A DNA stretch of 64,000 nt, from positions 62,001 to 126,000 of the forward strand of contig CAIQWJ010000052.1 in NCBI GenBank assembly GCA_903875575.1, in the 5' to 3' direction. The notes beneath the pieces were generated by a model. The model made no database searches, was not told where the DNA came from, and saw only the letters and a program-made list of their open reading frames with translations. This document shows positions 6,369 to 14,437 of this stretch, piece by piece (the stretch's first letter is position 1; every line of letters begins with the position of its first letter). The DNA is from an uncultured Acidobacteriia bacterium. Its GTDB lineage: Bacteria > Acidobacteriota > Terriglobia > Bryobacterales > Bryobacteraceae. The position numbers were made by a program, and so were the translations under genes.

Positions 6369-7820
6369 CTATATCTCGTTCCCCGCCGTCAACGGCCGCT
6401 GCCGAATCTCCATACACCCGCACCCAGTCGGCAGCATCTTCCCCGGATTAAACCGGCACTCCGGATCGAACAACGCCTTCAGCCGCGCCATGCAATCCAG
6501 CGACTCCGCCGAAAACAGCCGCCCCATCATCTCGTTCTTCTCCATCCCGACCCCATGCTCCCCGGTGATCGACCCACCCACCGAAATGCACCACGCCAGA
6601 ATCTCCTCGCCCGCCGCTCTCGCCTTCTCCAGTTCGCCTTCTACATGCGAATTGAAAAGGATAATCGGATGCATGTTCCCGTCGCCCGCATGGAAGATAT
6701 TGCTGATACTGAGCCCGGAATCCTTCGCTACTTCCGCAATCCGCCGCAGCGTCGGCGCAATCTGCGTGCGCGGCACCACCCCATCCTGCACGTAATACGA
6801 CGGACTGACCCGACCCACCGCGCCGAACGCGTTCTTGCGGCCCTTCCACAACAAATCCCGCTCCTCAGCCGTCTTCGCGACGCGCACTTCCCGCACACCG
6901 CACTTCAGGCACGCCTCGCGAATCTGCTCTACCTGCTCTTCCACAGCCTCGGTCAAACCTTCCAGTTCGATCAGCAGCACCGCCGCGGCGTCCTTCGGAT
7001 ACCCGGCGTGTGTCGCGTCCTCCACCATGCGGAGCATCTCGCCGTCCAGCATCTCCACCGCCACCGGCGTGATCGCCTGCGCCGTGATCTCCGCCACCGT
7101 ATCGGCGGCGTCTGAGGCGGCATTGCAAATCGCCAGAATCGTCTTCACCCGCTCCGGCTGGCGCATCAACCGCACCACAATCTTCGTGGTCAGCGCCATC
7201 GTGCCTTCCGATCCCGTCAGCAGCCCGATCAAATCGTAGCCCGGCCCATCCGCGCTCGTCGTGTGAATAGAACCATCAGGCAGCACGTACTCCAGCCCCA
7301 GAATGTGATTCGTTGTCACCCCGTAAGCCAGCGTATGTGGACCGCCCGCATTCTCAGCCACATTGCCGCCGATCGTGCAGGCCCGCTGGCTCGAAGGATC
7401 GGGCGCATAAAAGTAACCGAACGGAGCCACAGCCACCGAGATATCCAGATTCACCACCCCGGGCTCCACCGTGGCGCGCTCGTTCGCAATGTCGATCTCG
7501 ACAATGCGATTCATCCGCGCAAAGCCGACCATGATGCCGCCCGCGCGCGGAATCGCCCCGCCACTCAGTCCGGTGCCGGCGCCGCGACCCACCAGCGGCA
7601 ACTTGTACTCGGCGGCAATCCTGACGATTTCGGAGACTTCTTTGGTGGTGCGGGGGAAGACAACAATCTCAGGCCGCGATTTATCCACACTGCCGTCGTA
7701 TTCATACAGCGCGAGGTCATCGGCGCGGTCGAGCACGCCCTTCTCGCCAACGACGTCGAAGAGTCTGAGCCGGGCTTCCGCGGGGATCGTGCGGCGTTCG
7801 TAAGTAGCGGTCTCGCTCAA
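6369..7820 (-). CDS. glcD: FAD-linked glycolate oxidase subunit GlcD
   Basis: 483 residues, full length for the GlcD/D-lactate dehydrogenase family. The N-terminal FAD-binding (PCMH) domain shows PLVGRGAGTGLSGGAIP (residues about 75-91) and TIGGNVAENAGGPHTLAYG. The C-terminal FAD-oxidase domain shows HAGDGNMHP and GSITGEHGVGMEK. The enzyme oxidises glycolate (or another 2-hydroxy acid) to glyoxylate, feeding electrons to the respiratory chain with GlcE and GlcF. Neither of those genes is adjacent; a TlpA-like gene lies six bases upstream on the same strand. The closely related D-lactate dehydrogenases cannot be excluded by sequence alone. Confidence 0.88.
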   Translation of the reverse strand: MSETATYERRTIPAEARLRLFDVVGEKGVLDRADDLALYEYDGSVDKSRPEIVVFPRTTKEVSEIVRIAAEYKLPLVGRGAGTGLSGGAIPRAGGIMVGFARMNRIVEIDIANERATVEPGVVNLDISVAVAPFGYFYAPDPSSQRACTIGGNVAENAGGPHTLAYGVTTNHILGLEYVLPDGSIHTTSADGPGYDLIGLLTGSEGTMALTTKIVVRLMRQPERVKTILAICNAASDAADTVAEITAQAITPVAVEMLDGEMLRMVEDATHAGYPKDAAAVLLIELEGLTEAVEEQVEQIREACLKCGVREVRVAKTAEERDLLWKGRKNAFGAVGRVSPSYYVQDGVVPRTQIAPTLRRIAEVAKDSGLSISNIFHAGDGNMHPIILFNSHVEGELEKARAAGEEILAWCISVGGSITGEHGVGMEKNEMMGRLFSAESLDCMARLKALFDPECRFNPGKMLPTGCGCMEIRQRPLTAGNEI

Positions 7821-7826
7821 GTCAGC

Positions 7827-8339
7827 CTACAGATGAGACGACAGATCCTGAATCATCTGCGGCGAAGACCAGGGCTGCGAAGAAATAAATTTTTCGATGA
7901 CCTTGCCGTTGCGGTCAATCAGATAGCTCTCCGGGTACTGCACGGTTCCGTAGGAGAGATTGATCTTCTCTTCGGGATCGCGGGCTGTCGGATAGGCCAG
8001 CGGCGAACGCGCCAGGAAGTCCTTATAGAGCTTTTCGTCCTTGTCGACGCTGACGCCGAGCACCACCAGCCCCTTGGGGCCGAGTTGCCGCGCCATTTGA
8101 TTGAGGCTGGGAATCTCTTCAATGCAGGTGCCACACCACGTGGCCCAGAAATTCAGCAGCAGCACTTTGCCGCCGAAGTCTTTGACCGTGACGGTCTTGC
8201 CGGCGTCGGTCGTAATGGTGAAATCTGGCGCCGAATCACCGGCGTTGATGATGGTTTCGTGCAGCTGATTGTAGAGAGCGCCGCAGAACGCGATCAGCAT
8301 CAGCGCGAGTGCGGCCTGGAGGATTCGGTCGGCTTTCAT
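7827..8339 (-). CDS. TlpA/ResA-type thiol-disulfide oxidoreductase
   Basis: 170 residues. An uncleaved signal anchor (ILQAALALMLIAFCGALY, about residues 6-23) places a thioredoxin fold outside the cytoplasmic membrane. The redox site is WATWCGTCIEEIP, a CxxC motif at about residues 69-72, and YPESYLIDRNGKV carries the cis-proline-region pattern of the fold. Such proteins reduce disulfides in periplasmic apo-cytochromes or other partners. It ends six bases before glcD starts, on the same strand, so the two are probably cotranscribed. The specific partner is unknown. Confidence 0.85.
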   Translation of the reverse strand: MKADRILQAALALMLIAFCGALYNQLHETIINAGDSAPDFTITTDAGKTVTVKDFGGKVLLLNFWATWCGTCIEEIPSLNQMARQLGPKGLVVLGVSVDKDEKLYKDFLARSPLAYPTARDPEEKINLSYGTVQYPESYLIDRNGKVIEKFISSQPWSSPQMIQDLSSHL

Positions 8340-8392: not shown

Positions 8393-8809
8393 ATGATCAT
8401 TTCCAAAAAAGTCGAATTCTCGGCATCTCACATCTGCCGCTCACCGAAACTGAGCGACGCGGAGAACGAACGAATTTACGGGGCAGCGGCGAACCCGCTC
8501 AGCCACGGGCATAACTACATCGTGGAGGTCGCCATTGAGGGCGAACCTGAGCCCGTGACAGGCATGATTCTGGACCTCAAGCGCCTAAAAGAGGTCCTGG
8601 AGGAAAGGGTCCTGTCGGTATACGACCACCGACTGCTCAACCGCGAGATCGCTGTCTTCGAGACCCTGGTGCCGACCGTGGAAAACATCGCCATCGATAT
8701 CTGGAATCGCCTTAAAGGCCATATCGACCCCACCGGGCGCGCCCGCCTGTACTCCGTGCGCGTGCACGAAACGAATGAGTTGTTTGTGGAATACCGGGGC
8801 GGGCGGTAA
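8393..8809 (+). CDS. 6-pyruvoyl-tetrahydropterin synthase-like paralog A (Cys-less)
   Basis: 138 residues from ATG 8393 (a GTG at 8369 is also in frame). Tunnel-fold family member. The zinc ligands are present: His13 in FSASH, His38 and His40 in SHGHNY. The Asp78-His79 dyad is present in VYDHRLLN, and the pterin-anchoring Glu in VHETNELFVEY. The catalytic Cys expected in the YGKCNNP motif is missing: this protein reads YGAAANP, with Ala32 at the Cys position. It overlaps the next gene by one base, and folE follows. Family reactions act on 7,8-dihydroneopterin triphosphate, to 6-pyruvoyl- or 6-carboxytetrahydropterin. Alone it should be inactive or altered. Confidence 0.85.
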   Translation: MIISKKVEFSASHICRSPKLSDAENERIYGAAANPLSHGHNYIVEVAIEGEPEPVTGMILDLKRLKEVLEERVLSVYDHRLLNREIAVFETLVPTVENIAIDIWNRLKGHIDPTGRARLYSVRVHETNELFVEYRGGR

Positions 8810-9234
8810 TGGTCCACCTTTCCCGCAAATACGGGTTTTACGCCGCACACCGTCTGCACTCCCACCAGCTCAGCGACGCCGAGAACCGCGCCGTCTACGG
8901 AAAGTGCAATAATCCGAACGGACACGGGCATAATTATGAGGTGGAAATCACGGTGTTTGGCCCTGTGGACGGCGTGACCGGCCGGGCCGTGGATCTGGCG
9001 GTGCTGGACTCGCTGGCAGCGCGGGAGATTCTCGAGCCATTCCGCTATCGCAATCTGAATGAAGAGGTTGCGGCTTTCAAATCCGGGGTACCCACCACGG
9101 AGAACCTCACTTTTGAGATAGACCGAAGGCTGCGCAACGCCTGGAGTGAAACATTTCCCACGGGCTTGCCGAAGCTCGAAAAAATCCGCATCTGGGAGAC
9201 GGAACGAAACATCTGTGAAGTTGGCGGCCTATGA
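8809..9234 (+). CDS. 6-pyruvoyl-tetrahydropterin synthase-like paralog B (Asp-His-less)
   Basis: 141 residues. The zinc ligands His14 (FYAAH), His39 and His41 (GHGHNY) are present, and the catalytic Cys33 sits in the textbook motif [14 protein letters not shown]. The Asp-His dyad is lost: the region aligned to LDHKNLN reads FRYRNLN, so Arg79-Tyr80 replace Asp-His. The pterin Glu appears kept in IWETERN. The gene starts within the stop of paralog A (TAATG) and overlaps folE by four bases, so all three are tightly coupled. Together with paralog A it supplies a full set of catalytic residues. Confidence 0.88.
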
Positions 9235-9818
9235 ACCGAAAACGAGCTGTGGTGAAAGTAATGCCTGCGAAGCCAATCGCCCCGCTGATCAGCGGCGTGC
9301 TGGAGGCGATCGGCGAAAACCCGGCGCGCGACGGCCTGCAGCGCACTCCTGAGCGCGTGGAAAAGGCGCTGCGTTTCCTGACCAGCGGTTACACCGAAGA
9401 TGTAGCCAAGGTCGTCAACGGTGCCATCTACGAAGTGAAGTACGACGAGATGGTGATCGTGAAAGACATCGAGTTTTACAGCATGTGCGAGCACCATATG
9501 CTGCCGTTTTTCGGCAAGATGCACATCGCGTATATCGCCCGGAATAAGGTCATCGGGCTGAGCAAACTGCCGCGAATCGTGGACATCTTCGCGCGCCGCC
9601 TCCAGATCCAGGAACGCCTGACGCAGGAAGTGGCGCAGTGCATTCAGGACATGCTCGACCCGCTCGGCGTGGGCGTGATCGCCGAGGCGCAGCATTTCTG
9701 CATGATGATGCGCGGCGTGGAAAAGCAGCACTCCGGCACCGTGACCAGCACGATGCTGGGCGCGTTCCGCAAGAACAAAGAGACCCGGAACGAGTTTCTG
9801 TCGCTGGTACGAAAGTAA
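9231..9818 (+). CDS. folE: GTP cyclohydrolase I
   Basis: 195 residues, normal length for type I GTP cyclohydrolase, with start ATG 9231 overlapping the previous stop. Zinc-site motifs are clear: [18 protein letters not shown] (Cys and His ligands, residues about 84-101) and [15 protein letters not shown] (second Cys ligand). The enzyme converts GTP to 7,8-dihydroneopterin triphosphate in the cytoplasm. Its position behind two pterin-synthase paralogs suggests a dedicated route to a tetrahydropterin or 6-carboxytetrahydropterin (queuosine type) rather than folate alone; no queC, queE or folB is adjacent. Confidence 0.96.
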
Positions 9819-11913: not shown

Positions 11914-12000
11914 GCCCACCGCGGGCCCAAAGCATTTTCCTCGTCAGTTTGTGTCATAATTAGGGCACAATTTTTTCCTTATGCAGGGGGGAGGATGGCT

Positions 12001-13266
12001 ATGAAACTCGCATTTCGGTTTCTTCTGGCAATCGCAATCAGTCTTGGCTGCGCGTTGGCCCAGAAAGGGGGTGGCACCACAACAGGTGGCACCACCGGCG
12101 GAACAACAGGTGGCACCACAACAGGTGGCAGCACCGGCGGAACAACAACCGGCGGCACAACGGGCAGCACGACCGGCACCGGCACTACGAATAATCCAAC
12201 CGCGCTTCCCGCACAGACGCCCACACCCGCCACTGCGACTCCGGCACCTCCCCGGCAGATCTATCTTTCCGGCACCGTCATGGTCGACGATGGCTCGCCG
12301 CTTCCAGGCGGCGTCAATATCCAAACGGTCTGCGGCACCCAGCAGCGAAATGTCGCGCACACCAGTCAGTCGGGCGATTTCGGATTCCAGTGGTATTCCA
12401 CCTCCGGGACTGTGTTTGAAGATGCCTCGCAAAACGGTTTGCCTGGCAACAACTCCGGTCTCATGAGTTCCACTTCGACCAACAGCTCGAGCAGCCAGAG
12501 TGGAAGCAGCCGCATTAGCGATCCGCTTTCTGGTTGCGATTTGCGGGCTGAAGCTTCCGGTTACACCTCCTCTCGAGTCAGTCTGTCGAATCGCTCGCAA
12601 TTCGAGGATTTCGATATCGGCACCATCGTGCTGCACCGGATCAACGGCCACGAAGGAACATCGGTCAGTTCCCTCTCTCTGAAGGCTCCCAGGGAAGCAG
12701 TGAAGAGCTTCGAGAAGGGCACCGAACTGACCAGGGCGAATAAGACCGCCGAAGCCGCCGTGAGCTACCGCAAAGCGGTGACGGTGTATCCGCAATATGC
12801 CGATGCGTGGCTGGCGCTCGGCCTGGCGGAAGGCAAACTCGGTAATCAGGATACATCCCGCGACGCCTTCGAACACGCCATGACGCTCGATGACAAGCTG
12901 GCCGGCCCGTGGCAGGAACTGGGCTACATGGCGTCTGACCAATCGAAGTGGGCGGACGCGGCGCGCTATCTGGATACGGCGGTTCGGCTGGACCCGATCG
13001 GATCGCCGAAGGCCTGGTACTTCAACGCACTGGCAAACTACAACCTGGGCAAGTTCGACATCTCCGAGCGCAGTGTGCGGAACGAGATGAAGCTCGACAA
13101 GAACCCGCAGGCACAGTTTCTGCTGGGTATCGTCCTGATCGCAAAAAAGGATCTGCAGGGCGGGGCGGATGCGCTGCGGAATTTCATTGCAGCAGCACCG
13201 AACGCCAACAATATCCAGATGGCGAAGGAACAATTGAGCCAGGTGGAGAGCCGCCTTGGCCGCTAG
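12001..13266 (+). CDS. secreted TPR protein with Thr/Gly linker, paralog 1
   Basis: 421 residues. ATG 12001 is chosen over ATG 11995 because GGGGGGAGG ends at 11994, six bases before it. Signal peptide LAFRFLLAIAISLGCALAQ; then a Thr/Gly-rich low-complexity linker (residues about 22-65, repeats of GGTT and TGG); a beta-rich region opening with IYLSGTVMVDDGSPLPGGVN, resembling a carboxypeptidase-regulatory-like domain; and a C-terminal TPR region (about 225-415, e.g. YPQYADAWLALGLAEGKLGN). It probably works in the periplasm or at the surface as a scaffold. The next gene is a diverged copy, starting inside its last codons. Confidence 0.75.
   Translation: MKLAFRFLLAIAISLGCALAQKGGGTTTGGTTGGTTGGTTTGGSTGGTTTGGTTGSTTGTGTTNNPTALPAQTPTPATATPAPPRQIYLSGTVMVDDGSPLPGGVNIQTVCGTQQRNVAHTSQSGDFGFQWYSTSGTVFEDASQNGLPGNNSGLMSSTSTNSSSSQSGSSRISDPLSGCDLRAEASGYTSSRVSLSNRSQFEDFDIGTIVLHRINGHEGTSVSSLSLKAPREAVKSFEKGTELTRANKTAEAAVSYRKAVTVYPQYADAWLALGLAEGKLGNQDTSRDAFEHAMTLDDKLAGPWQELGYMASDQSKWADAARYLDTAVRLDPIGSPKAWYFNALANYNLGKFDISERSVRNEMKLDKNPQAQFLLGIVLIAKKDLQGGADALRNFIAAAPNANNIQMAKEQLSQVESRLGR
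12067..12185 (+). repeat. degenerate GGTGGCACCACA-type coding microsatellite
   Basis: Imperfect units of the type GGTGGCACCACAACA and ACCGGCGGAACA repeat about eight times and encode the Thr/Gly linker of the TPR protein. Such arrays change length readily by slippage in units that preserve frame. Confidence 0.7.
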
Positions 13267-14437
13267 ACTGGCAAGGCTGCCGGTGATGGCGATGGCGATC
13301 ACGGTCTGCGCGTGGGGGCAGGCCAGTTCGACTACCACGACAACCACAACCTCGTCGACCACTACTTCCACAACCGCCGCTGCAACCACTACTTCCGCGA
13401 CTGCTGCGCCGGTGACCATGGGACCTCTTACCGTTGGCACCAGACCGATTTTTCTTTCGGGCCGGATCATCACGGATAATGGTTTGCCGCTGCCGGGCAG
13501 CATCGACATTCAATCGGTCTGCGCGGGATTGCGGCGAACGATGGCCCGCGCGAATGCCGAGGGCGTGTTCAGCTTCCAGTGGTCGACTACCGCGAACTCT
13601 TACGGGGACGCCTCGCAGATGGTGCGCGCGACGGGCGGCACAAGAGCGGGCTCTCTGACGGGCTCGCAGAACGGCAACCGCGGGCTGGATCCGATCGCGA
13701 GCTGCGAACTGCTGGCAGAGTATCCGGGCTATGCATCGAGCCGCGTGAGTCTTTACGACCGGGCGGGACAGGACACCTGGGATGTGGGCGTTATCGTAAT
13801 GCACATGATTGCGGCCGGCGAAGGCCACACCGTGAGTCTGCTCTCGCTCAAGGCTCCAAAGGACGCGAAGAAGTATTTTGAGAAGGCCACCAATCTTTCG
13901 GCGTCCAACAAACCGGCCGAGGCGATGGATGCGTTCGCCAGCGCGGTGGCGAGCTATCCGGAGTTTGCCGATGCGTGGCTGAGCATGGGCAGAATCCAGT
14001 GGGACATGGGCGACCACGAGGCGGCGCGCGGGTCTTTTAGGCGGGCGATGACACTGGACAACAAGCTCGTCGGTCCATGGCAGGAATTGGGCTTCCTGGC
14101 GTGCGACGACGCGCGCTGGGAAGATGCTGTTCAGTATCTGGATCAGGCGGTGCGACTGGACCCTGTCAATGCAAATGGCCTGTACTACGACGCGTTGGCG
14201 AATTACAACCTGCAGCGGTACGATCATGCGGAGCGCAGCGTGCGGGCTGCGCTGAAACTCGATGGCGCGAAAAATCCGCGAGGGCAGTTTCTGCTGGGTC
14301 TTGTACTGATCGGCCGCAAAGACCCGGTGAGCGCGATTGAGGCGTTGCGGAACTACATTGCAACGGCTCCGGAAAAAGTGGACCTCACGCTGGCGCGGAA
14401 ACAACTGGCGCGGCTGGAGACCACGCTGCACCGATAG
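13256..14437 (+). CDS. secreted TPR protein, paralog 2
   Basis: 393 residues from TTG 13256, overlapping the previous stop by 11 bases with GGTGGAG upstream; this start gives a full signal peptide (LARLPVMAMAITVCAWGQA), whereas ATG 13286 would cut it. After a Ser/Thr/Ala-rich linker comes IFLSGRIITDNGLPLPGSID, parallel to paralog 1, and a TPR region (YPEFADAWLSMGRIQWDMG; DDARWEDAVQYLDQAVRLDP). The order of elements equals that of the upstream gene, so this is a tandem duplication. The overlap suggests coupled translation and joint function. Role unknown. Confidence 0.75.
   Translation: MAARLARLPVMAMAITVCAWGQASSTTTTTTTSSTTTSTTAAATTTSATAAPVTMGPLTVGTRPIFLSGRIITDNGLPLPGSIDIQSVCAGLRRTMARANAEGVFSFQWSTTANSYGDASQMVRATGGTRAGSLTGSQNGNRGLDPIASCELLAEYPGYASSRVSLYDRAGQDTWDVGVIVMHMIAAGEGHTVSLLSLKAPKDAKKYFEKATNLSASNKPAEAMDAFASAVASYPEFADAWLSMGRIQWDMGDHEAARGSFRRAMTLDNKLVGPWQELGFLACDDARWEDAVQYLDQAVRLDPVNANGLYYDALANYNLQRYDHAERSVRAALKLDGAKNPRGQFLLGLVLIGRKDPVSAIEALRNYIATAPEKVDLTLARKQLARLETTLHR

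Follow-up and report, generated by a model that had tools for sequence, protein, structure and literature searches.

The window analysed here, a stretch of 64,000 nucleotides from the genome of an uncultured Acidobacteriia bacterium, carries a compact plus-strand operon in which two paralogous genes of the 6-pyruvoyl-tetrahydropterin synthase (PTPS) family, termed A and B, are followed by folE (Table 1). The TAA stop codon of A shares one nucleotide with the ATG of B, and the stop codon of B shares four nucleotides with the ATG of folE. Upstream of A, at 6369-8339 on the minus strand, there are a divergent FAD-linked oxidase and a thioredoxin-like protein, and the ORF listing of loci L092 and L099 has similar-looking neighbours at the same place. 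Two adjacent plus-strand ORFs of the window (11995-13266 and 13256-14437) also look like tandem paralogs: both have a Thr-rich N-terminal stretch of low complexity, and their C-terminal halves are alike.

Table 1. Genes of the operon and codons of the active-site positions in the window
Feature	Position	Strand	Remarks
Paralog A, PTPS-family T-fold protein	8393-8809	+	catalytic Cys absent, Asp-His present; proposed Asp-His donor
Paralog B, PTPS-II-type (CxxxxxHGH)	8809-9234	+	zinc His, Cys and Glu present, Asp-His absent; proposed catalytic half
folE, GTP cyclohydrolase I	9231-9818	+	TIGR00063 250.9 bits (cut-off 181.6); also PF01227
Ala32 codon of A	8486-8488	+	column of rat Cys42; context YGAAANP
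Asp78-His79 codons of A	8624-8629	+	equivalent to rat Asp88-His89; context YDHRLLN
Cys33 codon of B	8905-8907	+	equivalent to rat Cys42
Arg79-Tyr80 codons of B	9043-9048	+	replace rat Asp88-His89; context FRYRNLN

Both proteins were translated and aligned to rat PTPS, and the alignment columns were numbered by anchoring on rat Cys42, the other columns being His23, His48, His50, Asp88, His89, Glu107 and Glu133. Around these columns A and B are free of gaps against rat and human PTPS. An earlier sequence-only reading of this DNA had described a reciprocal arrangement, with Ala32 and Asp78-His79 in A against Cys33 and Arg79-Tyr80 in B, and had stated that the three zinc-binding His and the pterin Glu are kept in both copies. 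Translation and alignment confirmed the first point and the alignment columns bore out the second, each protein having all three zinc His and the two Glu; the ORFs, coordinates and residue numbers given for A and B were all correct.

The assignment of both proteins to the PTPS family is given by the PF01242 profile (110.7 bits for A and 87.2 bits for B, cut-off 22.4), and their closest solved structures are rat and human PTPS (for A, rat PTPS 1b66). Neither protein reaches the cut-off of TIGR00039 (125.5; A 79.0, B 63.2 bits), for which the Poribacteria fusion L132 as a whole scores 157.3 bits, or that of the PTPS-I (QueD) model TIGR03367 (89.25; A 63.9, B 42.1 bits). In PMC5041015 the classes are told apart by the motifs CxxxxxHGH (PTPS-II), ExxHGH (PTPS-III) and CxxxHGH (PTPS-I). 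The PTPS-II motif is present in B, where the Cys spacing is five, unlike PTPS-I, and is broken in A by the Ala at the Cys position; the PTPS-III motif is also missing from A, which reads PLSHGH with Pro at the Glu position. The three zinc-binding His of PTPS-II (HHH) are found in both chains. A complete Cys/Asp/His triad is found in neither A nor B, and the pair together has all three residues. Fused relatives, L131, L040, L041 and L047 among them, have two T-fold domains with complementary residues in one chain, the window genes being separate. A third PTPS-family gene of the source genome lies elsewhere and is a QueD-type copy, L001 (G000:C2:3706-4068), with Cys and Asp-His in one chain; it reads CENVHGH and so has both the C-x3-HGH and the E-x2-HGH motif, as in a PTPS-I/III hybrid by the definition of PMC5041015.

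The data set consisted of 353 sequences, that is 352 loci and the window, with L002, L003, L004 and L154 excluded as repeats of the window. PTPS domains were cut out with one profile, giving 657 domain hits, from which 19 covering less than 95 of the 143 columns were removed. The 288 pairs were reduced to 253 distinct tandem pairs (195 two-gene and 58 fused) and the 62 singles to 56, where distinct means not letter-identical; close relatives remain among the 253 pairs. Any departure from Asp-His was counted as its loss. Genomes of the same family had a match to B in 142 of 150 cases, with two matches in all but one of those, and genomes of the same class had a match to A in 212 of 250; the named close relatives are Bryobacterales/Bryobacteraceae MAGs. 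The phylum-wide draw gave matches in 102 of 199 genomes, weak ones such as QueD included.

Of 34 stand-alone ORFs shorter than 240 residues and flanked on either side by 600 bases or more, 26 carry both Cys and Asp-His. The eight incomplete ones are L042, L048, L050 and L053, which belong to pairs on different contigs, L190 and L192, which are A genes beside a fragmentary B, and two odd proteins, L055 and the second copy in L045. This second copy (genome G064, L045 6470-6974) is strongly altered, reading EYYSIYPHGH, and LHYT in the region of Asp-His; a complete copy is about 1.1 kb away. The assemblies of L190 (1922-2217), L192 (520-681) and L120 (3428-3756) show B only as fragments beyond residues 42 to 57, through either a deletion or an assembly fault. 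In a tree of all domains the B chains cluster with support 0.85, five singles included; the A chains of two-gene pairs and those of fusions fall in different groups, so the tree does not show a single origin of A.

The distribution of the catalytic residues over the 253 distinct pairs is given in Table 2. B retains the zinc His and the Cys in 253 of 253 pairs and Glu133 in 252, the exception being an alignment gap at that position in L332. Asp-His is departed from in 103 B chains, and A is intact there in all 103. Neither residue is left in 36 of these, only Asp in 38 and only His in 29; one residue thus survives in 67, of which 10 have Glu for Asp, and some of these B chains may still be functional. 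No pair among the 253 is without Asp-His in A and B alike, or without Cys in A and B alike, and whenever the Cys is absent from a single copy, that copy is the first gene, by 190 to 0. As judged from these sequences, the reciprocal loss is more than chance. The sequence-only reading had asked whether A and B always occur side by side with reciprocal losses, and had counted relatives complete in both copies as evidence against it. Such relatives do exist (49 of 253), yet no pair breaks the reciprocity.

Table 2. Catalytic residues in the 253 distinct A/B pairs
First copy (A)	Second copy (B)	Pairs
without Cys	without Asp-His	92
without Cys	with both	74
with Cys and Asp-His	with Cys and Asp-His	49
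with both	without Asp-His	11
without either	with both	24
without Asp-His only	with both	3

Loss events were counted for the two-gene pairs, which were unselected by residue, on trees built with FastTree from no more than 143 columns. Asp-His was lost from A in 0 of 195 pairs and from B in 84, in about 33-39 events; the Cys was lost from A in 136 of 195 pairs, in 3 events, and from B never. At the rate of B, 22-26 losses of Asp-His would be expected in A and none was observed (Poisson P of 4e-10 to 7e-12, approximate). Among the 136 two-gene pairs with a Cys-less A, the Asp-His of A and the Cys, three His and two Glu of B are invariant (136/136). When the 134 columns of the same pairs were ranked by entropy, the A Cys column came 98th, B Asp 80th and B His 77th. 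The A Cys position is occupied by Ala in 85 pairs, Glu in 21, Asp in 10, Ser in 9 and others in the rest, and B has 24 different dipeptides other than Asp-His.

The entropies were also contrasted between the chains. Among positions conserved in B but relaxed in A, the top nine include rat positions 24, 41 and 42, with Cys42 third; for the opposite contrast, conserved in A but relaxed in B, the top nine take in 71-73, 88, 89 and 114, Asp88 and His89 being eighth and ninth, behind for example Trp114, the Lys at 73 and Leu72. The two chains thus divide the constraint in the way expected of a shared site, and this goes beyond the triad. The dN/dS ratios were 0.03-0.10 for A (five comparisons) and 0.08-0.21 for B (six comparisons), which are rough values as dS exceeded 1. 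A simple order of events in which the site of A dies first and B is then freed was also considered, and the rates do not show it: B lost Asp-His 29-39 times per 62.1 of tree length beside a Cys-less A and 9 times per 21.9 beside an A with Cys, which is no clear difference in rate.

Pairs in other arrangements were found as well. In Poribacteria both halves lie in one protein of about 277 residues (27 distinct fusions), the A half often having FGAAANP and YDHK and the B half FGKCNNP and often FDYK. Asp-His is present in the A half of 27/27 of these fusions and lost from the B half of 16/27. Of 84 Poribacteria genomes 78 were matched, and 68 have exactly two PTPS-domain matches. Fusions with reciprocal loss also occur in Acidobacteriota (G005, G124 and G013). 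In G005, which is 100% complete, and in the Poribacteria G534 and G535 the reciprocal fusion is the sole PTPS-family match; the fusions of G124 and G013 show stronger decay, and these genomes have further PTPS-family matches. The two genes lie on different contigs in G176, G055, G098 and G192, where A has lost a zinc His, the Cys and Glu133 and has kept Asp-His. B has lost the His of Asp-His in G176, G055 and G098 and both Asp and His in G192, with the rest of its set intact; a third PTPS-family match is present in G176. In the adjacent pair of G156, A is without Cys and one zinc His and has Asp-His, and B keeps zinc His and Cys, has no Asp-His and shows a shorter, QueD-like Cys spacing.

Not every pair follows one simple rule. 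The fusions of Armatimonadota have an A half without Asp-His in 27 of 28 cases and without Cys in 24 of 28; all 28 carry Cys and Asp-His in the B half. As their A is without Asp-His, a composite A/B triad is impossible and a B/B site must serve there; this A half looks non-catalytic from its residues. The same fusions (L124, L127, L134, L138, L323-L352) have Trp at the A Cys position in 15 of 27 cases, and AD, DQ, DG and others in place of DH. Where A is without Asp-His, B has 0 losses of Asp-His against 4.6-5.8 expected (P 0.003-0.01), a weak result as all 27 pairs are Armatimonadota fusions. Pairs complete in both copies occur in Acidobacteriaceae, for example Acidipila (L106) and Silvibacterium (L117), and in Granulicella (L107) only the His of B is gone. 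Of the 136 two-gene pairs with a Cys-less A, 63 have a B that carries Cys and Asp-His and could work alone. From the residues present, sharing between A and B is possible in such pairs too, and looks compulsory only where B is without Asp-His (103 of 253 pairs, and fewer if Glu-His or single survivors work). In Phycisphaerae/Planctomycetota (L136, L140, L142, L143, L147 and L149-L153) a complete C-terminal PTPS domain is preceded by an N-terminal part which matches the profile weakly and which is perhaps a further stage of A decay.

The sequence-only reading had placed the pair in a dedicated pterin route, and the survey supports a pterin operon: folE follows A and B on their own strand in 188 of the 195 two-gene pairs and in 41 of the 58 fused pairs, and is upstream in one fused pair. 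Sepiapterin reductase is a short-chain dehydrogenase (SDR). A search of the 1.8 kb downstream gave a short-chain dehydrogenase homologue for 36 of the 58 fused pairs and 14 of the 195 two-gene pairs, many loci being too short to show one; three of the four query proteins of this search were taken from these same loci. The homologue lies mostly at the distance expected behind folE, and directly behind the PTPS gene in at least six fused cases. The best matches of the dehydrogenases near folE are general SDR models; the sepiapterin reductase model TIGR01500 gives 41.7 bits for L041 (cut-off 206.55) and for the others is absent among the 25 matches listed. Biopterin synthesis proceeds by GTP cyclohydrolase I, PTPS and sepiapterin reductase (PMC5041015). 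Of 20 genomes searched, 5 have a biopterin-dependent hydroxylase (PF00351) and 6 have FolB, the source genome giving a match to neither, and 18 have pterin-carbinolamine dehydratase, the source genome included. The product of A and B is likely to be 6-pyruvoyl-tetrahydropterin.

From the observed sequences, reciprocal losses, operon and fusions, we infer that A and B would assemble physically, share residues in space and catalyse one reaction as the two halves of a single 6-pyruvoyl-tetrahydropterin synthase made from one operon with folE. The two chains would co-assemble into a mixed T-fold oligomer in which chain B gives the zinc-binding His, the catalytic Cys and Glu133, which we take to anchor the pterin, and the neighbouring A chain lends Asp-His, thus completing an inter-subunit triad; we give this reading a probability of roughly 0.77. 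The sites centred on A would be dead for the PTPS reaction as they have no Cys. FolE would convert GTP to dihydroneopterin triphosphate, which the A/B enzyme would turn into 6-pyruvoyl-tetrahydropterin for a biopterin-like cofactor. In rat PTPS, Asp88-His89 is probably contributed from the opposite trimer. The site at a subunit interface with Cys and an Asp-His pair, taken as background by the sequence-only reading, agrees with the title of Burgisser 1995, in which the words "intersubunit catalytic triad" stand. That reading had also proposed an obligate composite site. The composite site is strongly supported by the 103 of 103 altered B chains facing an intact A, by the fusions and by the four separated pairs, but sharing may not be obligate everywhere, given the 63 of 136 two-gene pairs and the 49 of 253 pairs described above.

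The losses may also be read with B as the whole enzyme, a homo-oligomer in which other residues replace Asp-His and A is a scaffold or regulator. The absence of the A Cys from 190 of 253 pairs, the Armatimonadota fusions with their degenerate A (Asp-His missing in 27/28, Cys in 24/28) and complete B, and the single residue left in 67 of 103 altered B chains would all suit such an enzyme. A mere scaffold, however, would not hold exactly Asp-His, which is invariant in A through the 195 two-gene pairs and the 27 Poribacteria fusions, the A Cys column being among the more variable ones of A; and the 24 different dipeptides seen in B show no common substitute for Asp-His. We regard B acting alone as unlikely.

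Slightly less probable still is a pair of separate homo-oligomeric enzymes, B of the biopterin type and A a synthase of the folate type (PTPS-III-like) or of another kind. The missing FolB match of the source genome and the Glu at the Cys position in 21 of 136 A chains are in line with this, and a Cys-to-Glu change alters the product of the malarial enzyme, as reported in PMC2229834. Yet the Glu of the PTPS-III motif ExxHGH (PMC5041015) is present in only 2 of 190 Cys-less A chains, the residues in place of the Cys (Ala, Glu, Asp, Ser and others) vary as they would under drift, and a B without Asp-His would still be incomplete. With its Cys and Glu motifs L001 could serve folate, and may serve both queuosine and folate in this genome without a FolB match. 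That the reciprocal loss in the window is a coincidence in a decaying duplicate, with one gene on its way out, is very improbable: although B is in pieces in L190, L192 and L120, the pair is kept in the same-family genomes (142 of 150 matched, two matches in all but one), dN/dS is low in both A and B, and the losses are site-specific and never overlap.

With the composite A/B enzyme as the preferred reading, the sister proteins probably work in many bacteria only when assembled together, to judge from their residues. With somewhat less confidence than for the shared site itself, we consider it probable that this is a widespread form of PTPS in which duplication turned a homomeric inter-subunit site into an entrenched two-chain enzyme, A becoming a pure "Asp-His donor" and the Asp-His of B decaying repeatedly; Armatimonadota would have gone another way, A being degenerate there and B complete. 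Together with these Armatimonadota fusions, the overlapping genes, the separated genes and the other fusions would form a natural series for following how symmetric enzymes turn into obligate heteromers with subunits that can no longer be parted. The losses recur, come in degrees and are spread richly over the phylogeny, from pairs complete in both copies through those with one or both halves lost to fused and separated ones, which makes this question directly testable. If A and B share one site, the name "6-pyruvoyl-tetrahydropterin synthase" for either gene as a stand-alone enzyme would be wrong for many genomes, and A or B expressed alone should look dead where B is without Asp-His.

The two-chain or split form of PTPS is apparently undescribed so far: searches of openly licensed papers, some of them aimed at Acidobacteria and Poribacteria, brought up no account of a PTPS with two chains or of a bimodular one. 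The QueD-type L001 (PTPS-I) is like A and B in its PF01242 domain and has Cys and Asp-His in one chain, and differs in the C-x3-HGH spacing and in being a single gene elsewhere in the genome. The AlphaFold2 model of the Poribacteria fusion L131 as a single chain (pLDDT 94.3, pTM 0.89) matches urate oxidase and GTP cyclohydrolase IB in structure comparison when both domains are taken together; these have 9% and 6% identity and another chemistry, and the comparison is with this fused relative and not with the split window genes. Bimodular QueF is absent among the 50 structure matches listed for the L131 model, which excludes nothing. In bimodular QueF of the E. coli/Vibrio type, according to PMC5372742, duplication has left the Cys and Glu to one T-fold domain and the QueF motif to its partner, with an interdomain site as the result, and site residues distributed over a pair of T-fold domains are thus known already; QueF is another enzyme with other residues and is one chain, in contrast to the two genes of the window and of 195 of the 253 pairs. 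The rat and human PTPS-II (1b66, 3i2b) are members of the same family in which the columns of zinc His, Cys, Asp-His and Glu align one to one with A and B. PTPS is described as a hexamer of identical subunits in PMC7546909 and PMC10767420, whereas in A and B the same residues are split over two chains, or over the two halves of one.
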